Shown one piece after another: positions 3,799 through 25,687 of a stretch of DNA of 64,000 bases (its first letter is position 1; each line of letters starts with the position of its first letter). The translations under genes and the position numbers were made by a program. The stretch is from the NCBI GenBank assembly GCA_021399445.1, contig JAJTUQ010000001.1, positions 3,038,001 through 3,102,000 on the forward strand. The letters are read 5' to 3'. A model generated the notes under the pieces. That model worked only from the letters and a program-made list of their open reading frames with translations, did not search any database and was not told the origin of the DNA. Origin of the DNA: Xylogone sp. PMI_703. Taxonomy: Eukaryota; Ascomycota; Leotiomycetes.

Positions 3799-6700
3799 AT
3801 GTCGTCCACCTCGGGTAGCATCATAGCTACTCCTTCAACCATGATAACCACAACCACCACCACTACCCCTACCACTACTTCTTCTACCTCGAGCCCTACC
3901 TTAGCTCCCACCACGACCTTTGGAGCTTCTTCTCTACCGCCCTTACCTTCCATTCCTCTTCAACGCCAGGCCATGCGAGCTACCAGGCCCAGCCATGTCC
4001 TGCAAACAACCTCCATTCCCACCTCGACTCCTGCCTCTCTCCCAGCATCCGCTGTCAGTGCCTCCTCTGTTACCACCTCGAGCTCACGCCAGGCCTCGCC
4101 GATGATGTCTCCATACACCACCCACCACAACACCAATAACTCGTCCTTGCAGAACTCCCCCGAAGGCCCTGTCGGCCGCAATGCCGATGTCATGCCACCG
4201 GCCTTGGACCTCGATGAACCCATGCCACGATACTCATACCAGACCACCACCTCCTTCGAATCCCACGAGACCGTCGTGTCACGCAAGTCGAGCCAATCTG
4301 CCATGAGCGACGTTGTAACCAAATCCCCTGGTTTAATGAGACGATTGTCGAACAAGGCATCCCAATTTGCCGGCCGACGACGACGACTATCTTCCAGCAC
4401 GGCCATGAGTCGAGACCATAGTACAGGCCCTTATATCATGCGAAGGAGGAGCGACAGCACGAACACGGCACCAGATGGTGGAAAGAACTCTCCGTTTGAC
4501 TCAGATGACGACCCGAGTGATGACCTCCTCCCTGATGAGGCATCCGTGAACATGGAGAGCATCCGAGATTGGCCGTCTGCCAGTGCTTCAGTTGCTGGCT
4601 CCTCAATCGCCGCTTCTACCAAGGAAGCCACCGGCCCGGTAATACCATCCATTCTGCTACAAGGAACCACAATGACCAAGGTCACGAAAAAGAAGAAGAA
4701 GCTGTTGACCTTCGTCTTGGAGAGTGAAGCCGCGAAGGTCTGCTGGGACAAAAACAAGCCTTCCAAGTCCTTCTATATCGACGATATCCAGGAGATCAGA
4801 GCCGGCGAGGACGCTCGAAACTACCGACAAGAGTTTGGCGTGCCCGCTACAGAGGAGACTCGCTTCTTCACCATTGTCTATGCTATCTCCGACAAGTCGA
4901 AAGGCCGCTCGCAAAAAACGATGCATCTCATTGCCAGGAACGATGAGACCGTGGAGCTTTGGGTCTCAACCTTGGATGCGATATCGAAGCATCGCCATGA
5001 TCTCATGGCATCCCTTTCCTCCTTCCATGACAAGGCGGTCAGGACCTACTGGCGCAACGAGATGAATAGGCAATCTCAGGACCGCCCCCGGACTGAAGAT
5101 GAAGAAGATATCGACTTTAATGGTGTTGAACGATTATGTCGCAACAACTTGCATATCCACGTCTCGACGGCCACGCTTCGTGCCAAGTTCAACGAGGCGG
5201 ATGTCACCCACACCGGCCGTCTCAACTTTGTCGAATTCCAGGAATTCGTTAGGTTAATGAAGAGAAGAGAGGATGTTCGGGCCTTGTATCGTGAAATCGC
5301 ATCTGACATCAGCAAAGGTCTTACCCTTGACGAGTTCCTTCAATTCATCAGTGAGATTCAAGGCGATGACATCTCCGACAAGACGTACTGGGAGGGAGTT
5401 TTCGCTAAGTTCGTGCGACGCTCGAAACCAAAAGACCAAGCGGCACAGGGTCTCGTTGACGGCGAAGCGCCACGGATGAATGAATCGGCTTTAACCAGCT
5501 ATCTTATTTCCACATTGAACCTTCCAATCGCCAAAGCTCCTGCTCAATATACTCTGGATCGGCCGATGAATGAATACTACATATCCAGCTCTCACAACAC
5601 ATACCTACTCGGACGACAGTTCGCCGGGCAATCCAGTATCGAGGCCTACATTTCAGCTTTAAGCAAGGGATGCAGGTGTGTTGAGGTAGATTGCTGGAAC
5701 GGCAACGATGGGCAACCTGTCGTGATGCACGGCAGAACTCTCACCAGTCAGGTATCCTTCGCAGATGTCATGGCCACAATCAGTAAATATGCGTTCGTCA
5801 AATCACCATACCCTCTCTGGGTCTCACTTGAAGTTCACTGTAACCCCCAACAGCAAGCTATCATGGCTCAGATTATCAAAGATACTTGCGGTTCGAAATT
5901 GGTAACATCACCGATCGATCAAGAGGGCGAGCAGCTCCCGTCTCCTTCTCAGCTCTTGCATCGCATCCTCATCAAAGTCAAGAAGCCTCGAGAATTCAAG
6001 GACCAGGTTCTTCCGGAGTCACGTGTTGGCCGCCTTCGTAGCAGCAGTCTGAGCTCTCCGTACATGCGGCCAACGCAGCTCGATAATTCTACAGTTTCTG
6101 CCGGTCTTTTGCCACCAAGCAACTATCCCCGGATACCAAGGTCGACGACCTTGCGAATCGGGGGATCGGTGAGCGAAAGTCCTGAGATCCTCAGCAGCAG
6201 CTCTAGCGACAGTGACAGCATGATTGACGAAGCTGCAAAAGCAGTGGACGGTACTCGGAAGGCTAAAACCAGCAACATCATCAAGGTCCTTGGAGAGCTA
6301 GGAGTATACAGTGCAGGCATCAAATTCCACGGCTTTGACGATCCAGAAAGCAAGACTTACAACCATATTTTCTCATTCATGGAAGCTACATTCATGAAGA
6401 ACACAAAAACTGTTGAGGATAAACGTGCTCTTATGAGACACAATATGCGCTACATGATGCGGGTCTATCCCAACGGATGGCGTGTAGCATCTACCAATTT
6501 CGATCCTCTTACCTACTGGCGACGGGGTGTTCAGATGGCGGCCCTGAACTGGCAGACTTACGATCTTGGTATGCAGATGAACGACGCCATGTTTGCAGCC
6601 GGGACGGATCAGTCGGGTTACGTCTTGAAGTCCAGCGACCTTCGGGAAATCAAGATGATCACTAGTGTTCCAGAAGAAGCCGGTATCAACCATACCAAGC

Positions 6701-23811: not shown

Positions 23812-24026
23812 TCTATTATTTGTGGGGAATACAAGATGTGATAGATAACTATTACTCCGCGTACCTAGTTATTTCAGGATAGGCCATAGGCACAATATGG
23901 ACATACTCACCACTTCTTTATTGCCTTTGTAATATTGGATTGGGCACATATTTCCACAGTGAAATCAAACACAAGATACATACTGTCCCGCTTCGTGGCG
24001 CCAATATTTTCTCTCAGGTCCGCAAC

Positions 24027-25072
24027 GCCGAGTGTTATAGTGACGAATTTCATGAACAAGATCCGCAACGTAAAACCGTCATAGCCAGTCTTATTGCTAG
24101 TTTCTTGCCGAGATTAATAGCGTTGGATTTCGAGATACAGATGGTGAACGAATTCTGGACAGAAATATTCAATTCCAGATGCTCATGCGCCGAGCAATAT
24201 AGCGCTATGGTATCAAACATAAGGGCGCAACAAAACATTTCCTATAGTTTTATATACCTTGGATGCCAAGATCTTTAGTGAAGAATTTTGATATCATGAG
24301 ATGCAACGGAATACTATACTTTATACTCATTTGCCCTGCTCTCCGCTGAGCTTCTCAGTGATAGGTTTCTAAATGTTAAAGAATTTACAGACATATTTCG
24401 ATCGCCAAGACATATAGTGAAGAGTTTTCACGGATAGAGACGCAACGAAATAGATCTACTTACAGCTGTATCTATGCCGAGCTTTATAGTGACGAATTCT
24501 TAAAATCAGATCCGCAACGAAGAGATATACTTTCTTGTTAGCATGGCCAAATACCGGCTTAGTACGCCGAGAAATATAGTGACGATTCTCTGATCTCAGA
24601 TTCGCAACGAAGGAACATGTTTTCATGCCAAACTACGTATTGCAGCGGCAACTAATCAAGCTGAGAGGAATAACAGTGTTTTCAGTTATCAAGATATGCA
24701 TCAAACTTTTGCACTCAAGTATATTTTCTTTACCTACTTATACCGAGCTTTATAGTGAAGATTTTGAAGTATCAGATTTGCAACGAAAGCTTCTTTGTCG
24801 CTGTGATTTATATTAAAAACCAGAGCCTTCACGCCGAGTGATATAGTGATATATTCCTCCGTACAGATCCGCAACGAAATTTTGGTTTTCACAACCACTC
24901 TCTTTCTCATGTGACTGACGGCTAAAGACTTACCCTTTCGTTGCGGATCTGATACTTCAAAATCTTCACTACAAAGCTCGGCGAAGCAAAGAGCCTGGCG
25001 GAGTTCTTAATCTCGTAAAGTTGAATTTCGTTGCGAGTCTCGCAGGTAGCATCCAGCGCTATATTGCTCGGC
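24027..25072. repeat. Array of thirteen 47-bp repeats with unique spacers, last two inverted
   Basis: Units on the plus strand start at 24027, 24107, 24189, 24265, 24345, 24404, 24476, 24566, 24660, 24742 and 24833. Minus-strand units lie at 24936-24982 and 25026-25072. All align without gaps over 47 nt. The left end reads GCCGAG then three variable bases then TATAGTGA; the right end reads CAGATCCGCAACGAAA; about 12-15 central bases vary. Units at 24345 and 24660 are decayed. The spacers of 12-56 bp are unrelated to each other. The unit length is not a multiple of three and each unit is not itself palindromic. I do not recognise the family. It is not a CRISPR array in the bacterial sense. Confidence 0.9.
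24742..24982. repeat. Inverted repeat formed by two near-identical array units
   Basis: Unit 24742-24788 (plus) and unit 24936-24982 (minus) differ at only about four of 47 positions and are in opposite orientation, enclosing 147 bp that includes the unit at 24833. A transcript across them could fold into a long hairpin. Confidence 0.85.
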
Positions 25073-25687
25073 ATGATATTCGTAAGACTAGATGAGGACA
25101 TTCTAGGATATATAGAGCATAATAGACTATCTTACCCTTTGTCTACCTTGGTGATGCTTAACAAAGTCTATCTTCGGAGTTGGAACGTTGATCAGGTACG
25201 GGCCGTACGGCATTAAATTGGACCGGCATAGGCCAGCCCAGGCCATAGCCGGGTCTTTTCTTTCCCCTGACCCCACCTCCGGCACAACGATCTAGGTGGG
25301 GTTCGGGTTGAGCACGGCGAGCACTGCGAACACGGCAATTCCATCGACAGCGTAAATATCATGCCTAGAAGCTAGAACATAGATCCGAGATTAGAGCTTC
25401 TGACGTTACACATATAACTTAAGTATAGATACATTATCCTTATTTCACGAGCTGAGGATTTGGCGCCTATTTCATTTGGCCTCAGACGGTTACAGTGTAT
25501 GTGTTAACCAACAGCCCTATCTATATCAGAGCAGACATCATATATGTACTCGAGCATACCAACATTTCGCCTATTAGATCGAAAGTTGCTGAATAGTTGT
25601 ATTTTCCCCATATGCCCATCGCGTCGGTATCCTTTGATTAACTAAATCCTTTAGCAAATATCGATCCCCTTTTTGTCTACGGCAGAT

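Follow-up and report, generated by a model that had tools for sequence, protein, structure and literature searches.

The window, that is, the whole 64,000-nucleotide stretch of Xylogone sp. PMI_703 DNA that was analysed, contains an array of imperfect 47-bp units lying between ORFs (Table 1). The ORFs on its upstream side, which we take to be Urb2-like, gave no Pfam match. On the downstream side lies an alpha/beta-hydrolase gene, with Use1 beyond it. The hydrolase shares 84% identity with a protein of Scytalidium lignicola, and its other named Leotiomycete matches are near 50%; by this one protein, the fungus is placed close to S. lignicola.

The array was scanned with an iterated 47-base profile, which found 11 units (24027-25072), and with a 51-base profile, made by adding two bases on each side, which found 12. 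Neither profile matched the control of reversed, uncomplemented loci (0 matches in 216,020 bases for the 47-base profile and 0 in 229,828 for the 51-base profile). The initial annotation had counted 13 units; 12 were recovered by profile, and one further degenerate copy, below the thresholds, could be placed by eye near 24345. The conserved ends that it described (GCCGAG..TATAGTGA and AGATnCGCAACGAAA), with a variable middle between them, were borne out by the scans. The two bases added on the left are also conserved (A/G, then C/T), indicating that the site is nearer 49-51 bp.

Table 1. Array units in the window (positions of the window) and features at other loci (locus:position).
Feature	Position	Strand	Score or remark
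Whole array, 12 detected units	24025..25074	.	ten + then two -; profile scans
Unit 1	24027..24073	+	profile score 55.2
Unit 2, weaker, TAGCG subtype	24107..24153	+	29.3
Unit 3, degenerate, TAGCG subtype	24189..24235	+	16.0
Unit 4	24265..24311	+	40.5
Unit 5	24404..24450	+	48.2
Unit 6	24476..24522	+	61.2
Unit 7	24566..24612	+	59.9; aligns with flanks to the array at C1:5.97 Mb
Unit 8, very degenerate	24660..24706	+	51-base profile 12.8 (cut 10); missed by 47-base profile
Unit 9	24742..24788	+	57.1
Unit 10	24833..24879	+	53.5; TTCCTCCG middle resembling single units in several other arrays
Unit 11, inverted	24936..24982	-	58.8
Unit 12, inverted, TAGCGCT subtype	25026..25072	-	46.2
Right-half motifs between full units	L024:3236-3895		four motifs
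Small divergent array	L041:210-390		C1:5.394 Mb
171-base repeats of putative LTR element	L013:5335-5505, L014:2538-2708		C12:113.8-120.2 kb
Dispersed ~210-bp element, copies in or beside fetched arrays	L009:4622-4867, L030:39-276, L034:500-698		3 of at least 40
Short tandem repeat, ~67 bp	L021:2824-3021		upstream of a two-unit array
Myb_DNA-bind_8 ORFs	L010:2769-3179, 4967-6013		first below Pfam cutoff

The units form a dispersed family

Across the 29 loci that were fetched, which lie on six contigs of this 50.1-Mb genome, the unit recurs about 250 times. At a 51-base profile score of at least 10, 232 units were found across the 29 loci, and 250 after gapped matches at E <0.001 were added. The gapped search of the reversed control gave two weak matches (E 0.023 and 0.18), so half-unit matches of that strength are not secure. 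In pattern searches, the 16-base end motif with at most two mismatches occurred at 135 genome places and at 20 in the control. The 35-place patterns with at most three mismatches occurred at 200, 202 and 43 genome places (overlapping sets) and at none in the controls; among the matches listed for them, the only contigs were C1, C12, C19, C20, C21 and C22. The family motif carries 55 bits of information.

Whether the copies cluster in arrays had been left to a genome-wide search, and they do: two or more units lie in 28 of the 29 loci, with a median of 7 units per locus (range 1 to 19), and both orientations are present in 13. Six extra units were found in three further small loci (one in L038, one in L039 and four in L040). 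The arrays are positioned between ORFs, as judged from ORFs and not gene models. They are mildly clustered along the contigs, since 11 of the 29 array positions, entered by hand for this test, have another within 100 kb, versus a mean of 3.6 in a null on the same six contigs (P 0.005). Outside this genome, the exact 35-place pattern, which diverged relatives would escape, matched bacterial and archaeal contigs once (Bacteroidales, nhmmer E 1.6e-4), which is taken as a chance match. The same exact pattern, with the same blindness to diverged relatives, gave no match in viral contigs.

The distance between the end motifs is nearly fixed

The motifs GCCGAG and AGANNYGCAACG were found with N26 between them at 145 genome places and at none in the control, versus 8 places, and 2 in the control, for N28-58 pooled; N26 and N28-58 were the spacings covered by the search. 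Among the N26 matches listed, single places outside the fetched loci were C12:6.00 Mb, C21:0.728 Mb and C1:5.4196 Mb. Among 191 full-length gapped matches family-wide, 174 had no net indel, 12 had -1, 4 had +1 and 1 had +2. The unit length is thus nearly fixed, not absolute. No palindrome was found in the unit, the best centre having a mean complement probability of 0.40 over 8 pairs versus a background of 0.25. The spacing counts and the indel tally, together with the column-wise constraint described below, give good support to the earlier suggestion of a two-part site whose spacing is constrained, and a two-part protein-binding site appears the likeliest of the options then offered.

Some spacers are related between arrays while the motif columns are kept

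The spacers had been described as unrelated and not copied, and this view proved wrong in part. By all-against-all blastn, the window aligns with the array at C1:5.97 Mb with 86.6% identity over 224 bases, spacers included; L018 aligns with L033 (83% over 271 bases), L028 with L029 (82% over 279 bases), and L011 with itself when shifted by one repeat (68% over 911 bases). When the 20,301 pairs of downstream spacers were scored, 47 reached at least 20 and 22 reached at least 28, while the maximum in 20,000 shuffled draws was 17. Thus some spacers align between arrays, indicating that pieces of arrays have been duplicated, with later divergence of the copies. Alignment of spacers between copies had been named beforehand as an outcome against a site array. 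It was found in part, and the site-array idea survives it, with the motif columns kept while spacers and free columns diverge.

The extent of this divergence was compared in the 22 strongest pairs, chosen on spacer similarity alone. Differences were seen in 25 of 528 cells (4.7%) at the conserved columns, defined on 51 units from uninvolved arrays, and in 107 of 330 cells (32%) at the variable columns. The spacers themselves differed at 215 of 940 positions (23%), plus 28 gaps, a figure biased low because the pairs were picked by spacer similarity. A looser cut of 47 pairs, for which the columns were defined on all units since only 19 units lay outside, gave 64/1,175 for conserved columns, 265/705 for variable columns and 483/1,888 for spacers. 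The cells are not independent, which tempers the very small Fisher values. Over all unit pairs, the mean identity was 0.868 at the conserved columns and 0.323 in the middle, which is near random; profile detection favours the conserved columns, and the free columns and spacers serve as an internal control. As read within this one genome, the pattern points to constraint on particular bases and not to homogenisation, because whole-unit homogenisation would not spare just the conserved columns.

These data also bear on the class of repeat. Head-to-tail repeats related by descent, a feature of satellites and minisatellites, are present here, as self-alignments shifted by whole repeats and spacer homology indicate. 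The arrays could accordingly be pictured as a neutral, old and diverged minisatellite whose motif is simply what stays recognisable, and the head-to-tail order, the L011 self-alignment and the spacer homology do fit a decayed tandem repeat. However, unconstrained decay would level the conserved and middle identities (0.87 and 0.32), the pairs chosen by their spacers give the same split between conserved and variable columns, and the spacing period near 10 bp reported below is not expected. This explanation was already disfavoured and we consider it very unlikely. A homogenised uniform monomer was rejected, as only 4 of those 22 top-scoring pairs lie within one array and spacer lengths range from 7 to over 60 bp across the family.

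CRISPR was rejected as well. The repeats are not near-identical in their middle, as the mean identity over all pairs shows, both orientations occur in the loci, and mutually unrelated spacers are contradicted by the spacer scores. No cas families were found among the 50 scanned of 124 flanking ORFs (20 loci) or among 5 window ORFs. The CRISPR-like layout in the initial annotation, which itself proposed no CRISPR function, is an outward likeness only: the units differ among themselves, and part of the spacers are related by descent but diverged.

Units tend to be spaced by whole helical turns

Between 51-base units, same-strand gaps concentrate near 8-11, 20-21, 28-34 and 39-40 bp. For the 155 gaps of at most 60 bp (43 of the 198 same-strand gaps, those above 60 bp, being excluded), the power spectrum peaked at 9.8 bp with a power of 16.3, which none of 2,000 smoothed nulls reached over 8-13 bp. 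When one spacer was kept per homology cluster (125 clusters from 155 spacers), the power was 11.8 and none of 3,000 nulls reached it, although a null made by smoothed resampling could still carry duplication history even with homologous spacers thinned. The phase resultant is moderate (0.32), and the mean phase is near zero, indicating that successive units lie roughly an integral number of turns apart.

Inverted neighbours were also inspected. The gaps of ten head-to-head pairs are 1, 9, 9, 10, 10, 10, 11, 11, 13 and 122 bp, three of them sharing a spacer by descent. An eleventh pair has a 10-bp gap and is split by the LTR insertion described below, so that 9 of 11 fall at 9-13 bp. Of 13 tail-to-tail gaps, 8 are at most 60 bp, and these are no more than suggestive (P 0.06-0.16). 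Inside the unit, a peak near 10 bp is seen in the column information, but it is weak, as an autocorrelated null reaches the peak in 77 of 5,000 trials for periods of 9.5-10.75 and in 600 of 5,000 for 7 to 16.

Transcription of each unit, as a structured or guide RNA gene or from a Pol III-type internal promoter, was weighed against these results. A and B boxes are bipartite and lie at a fixed distance, which the unit layout recalls, but the box letters fit poorly. RNAalifold gave no consensus pairs on 69 units (47 unit columns without flanks), Rfam gave no matches in the window and none in six array loci at E <=0.5, and ARAGORN with the bacterial code found no tRNA genes in 20 loci. Moreover, the spacing follows the helix, which is a property of duplex DNA. 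The structured-RNA option raised earlier is not supported by these folding and family searches, and RNA genes of any of these kinds are, in our judgement, highly improbable.

Subtypes and inserted elements

In one subtype, TAGCGCT stands in place of TAGTGA, and columns 15, 17 and 20 change together with it. Units of this subtype are more frequent at the two ends of a locus (18/38 first or last units vs 39/194 others, P 0.0008). In L024, full units alternate with four right-half motifs that bear another, mutually similar left part. In L041, a small divergent array has the same end motifs with a different middle (TGAGAAGAAG) and a wider end-to-end spacing.

Several elements were found in or near the arrays. 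Between L013 and L014, a segment of about 6.4 kb is enclosed by two copies of a 171-base repeat (TG...CA), identical to each other, and by a 5-base duplication, ATATT. It is probably a young LTR element that landed in the 10 bp separating a head-to-head pair and split one array, and a gag pre-integrase match below the cutoff lies inside it. A dispersed SINE- or MITE-like element of about 210 bp has at least 40 scored genome copies (at least 57 candidates) with 70-93% identity excluding the query, and weaker matches to it occur in array loci L021, L022, L023 and L026. It had looked like an array partner, but three of the 40 scored copies lie in or beside fetched arrays (Table 1), and it is provisionally treated as independent. 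L021 also holds a short tandem repeat.

No shared transposon ends, terminal inverted repeats or array borders were found by all-against-all blastn of the 29 loci, of which L029-L036 are short with little flank. The blastn matches outside detected units were the LTR pair, the ~210-bp element, local repeats (L012, L021), degenerate units that had been missed, and short alignments. No Pfam transposase was found among the 50 scanned flanking ORFs or the 13 ORFs (>=100 aa) overlapping arrays, and the latter gave no Pfam match at all.

The arrays could nevertheless belong to a selfish element, as transposase, recombinase or replication-protein sites of mobile DNA; the motif would then be kept since only arrays retaining it spread, and the host would not need it. 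Such a history would suit arrays at unlike loci on six contigs with segments common to different chromosomes, and no host gene class is tied to the arrays among the scanned ORFs. Multi-copy recognition sites also occur in transposon ends. Against it stand the lack of shared termini or borders in the comparison above, the varying number of units per locus, and scanned ORFs without a transposase, save the weak gag pre-integrase match. We regard a selfish origin as unlikely.

Nameable neighbouring genes belong to unlike families

In 20 loci, 124 flanking ORFs of at least 100 aa were listed and 50 were scanned against Pfam. Half of the scanned ORFs (25/50) had a match, and no family ranked first at more than one array. 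The named neighbours fall in unlike Pfam families: NAD kinase, gamma-tubulin component, Sec62, Psf2, Rhp7, TGT, SDH subunit and Kin17. PF01266 (DAO) is the best match beside L025 and a secondary match beside L018. One array, in L010, is flanked on both sides by Myb_DNA-bind_8 ORFs. Where ORFs of at least 150 aa lay on both sides (17 of the 20 loci), 8 loci were convergent, 8 tandem and 1 divergent; this tally uses ORFs in place of gene models, and 8 of 17 convergent is just mildly above a quarter.

These neighbours are relevant to an ordinary cis-regulatory function, in which the arrays, bound by a shared transcription factor, would be enhancers for adjacent genes. Sites in several copies and either orientation, lying between ORFs, are what enhancers could look like, and helical phasing is common among cooperating factors. 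But the nameable neighbours belong to unlike families, and with one locus in 17 between divergent ORFs, few arrays face two promoters. An enhancer role thus seems rather unlikely to us. It and the selfish role are the main rivals to the interpretation given below.

Discussion

We lean, by a modest degree, to the reading that the array in the window belongs to a set of about thirty dispersed arrays, built of a double-stranded DNA site of about 49-51 bp, and is a candidate platform for protein copies in helical register. A cooperative large protein site is the simplest reading because of the near-rigid unit length, the column-wise constraint, the helix-period spacing and the pair geometry. In the mechanism that we propose, a sequence-specific protein or complex would read about five helical turns, and neighbouring protein copies would assemble in helical register, so that the array would serve as a multi-copy docking platform. 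Ectopic copying of array pieces would create new arrays, in which selection would then keep the binding sites while the spacers drift. The platform might have a chromosomal role, as a boundary, tether, pairing site or enhancer-like hub, rather than serve one neighbouring gene; this part is a guess, made because the nameable neighbours belong to unlike families, and the wide dispersal together with these neighbours leads us to lean to a chromosomal over a gene-specific role.

A bolder form of the platform reading can be stated. The family could be a putative chromosome-organising code, with about thirty platforms of up to 19 five-turn sites each, bound by a multi-domain protein that is cooperative in helical register and that would join distant regions or mark boundaries, the site being selected at every platform. 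Judged from sequence patterns, we find this full version unlikely.

By analogy, the family would work most like baculovirus homologous regions (hrs) or box-bearing satellites. A CENP-B-type box outlasts the rest of its satellite repeat, and Drosophila 1688 and Tribolium TCAST1 are satellites with a recognisable monomer. The hrs are enhancer and replication-origin regions bound by IE-1, dispersed in the genome, with several direct repeats in an hr whose core is bound by a protein acting in trans (PMC2834656), and dispersed arrays with a conserved core are likewise found here. However, the hr core is an imperfect palindrome of 28-30 bp in a virus, whereas the present core of 47-51 bp has no fold or palindrome, lies in a fungal nuclear genome with up to 19 units per locus, and has a binder that is only putative. 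Alpha satellite carries a protein-binding box, the CENP-B box, inside tandem repeats (PMC5615363); this box is 17 bp long and lies in centromeric arrays, in contrast to the short dispersed arrays described here. The same paper reports the 1688 and TCAST1 families in short arrays scattered through euchromatin, a distribution similar to ours; unlike them, the present family lacks a uniform monomer, and what recurs is a constrained core in helical phase. In MER41, tandem STAT1 sites are repeat-borne and preferentially lie 21 bp apart, close to two turns of the helix (PMC2897888), and this resembles the phasing seen here. Yet MER41 is an LTR, and its consensus carries two short sites for a known factor. 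CRISPR arrays share the alternation of repeat and spacer, but here the units are imperfect, spacers are homologous between some arrays, both orientations occur and the genome is fungal.

Searches of the openly licensed literature for such an array family in fungi yielded none. To our knowledge, dispersed arrays of very long, phased and constrained sites are rare in eukaryotes. With its 55 bits, the motif has sufficient length to be used as bait for the putative binding protein, and the natural variants in the genome, about 250 in number, could be used for contact mapping. If the arrays organise chromosomes, they would offer a compact, sequence-defined system for asking how this is done; if they are selfish, they would illustrate how arrays of binding sites are able to spread although no transposon ends are seen.
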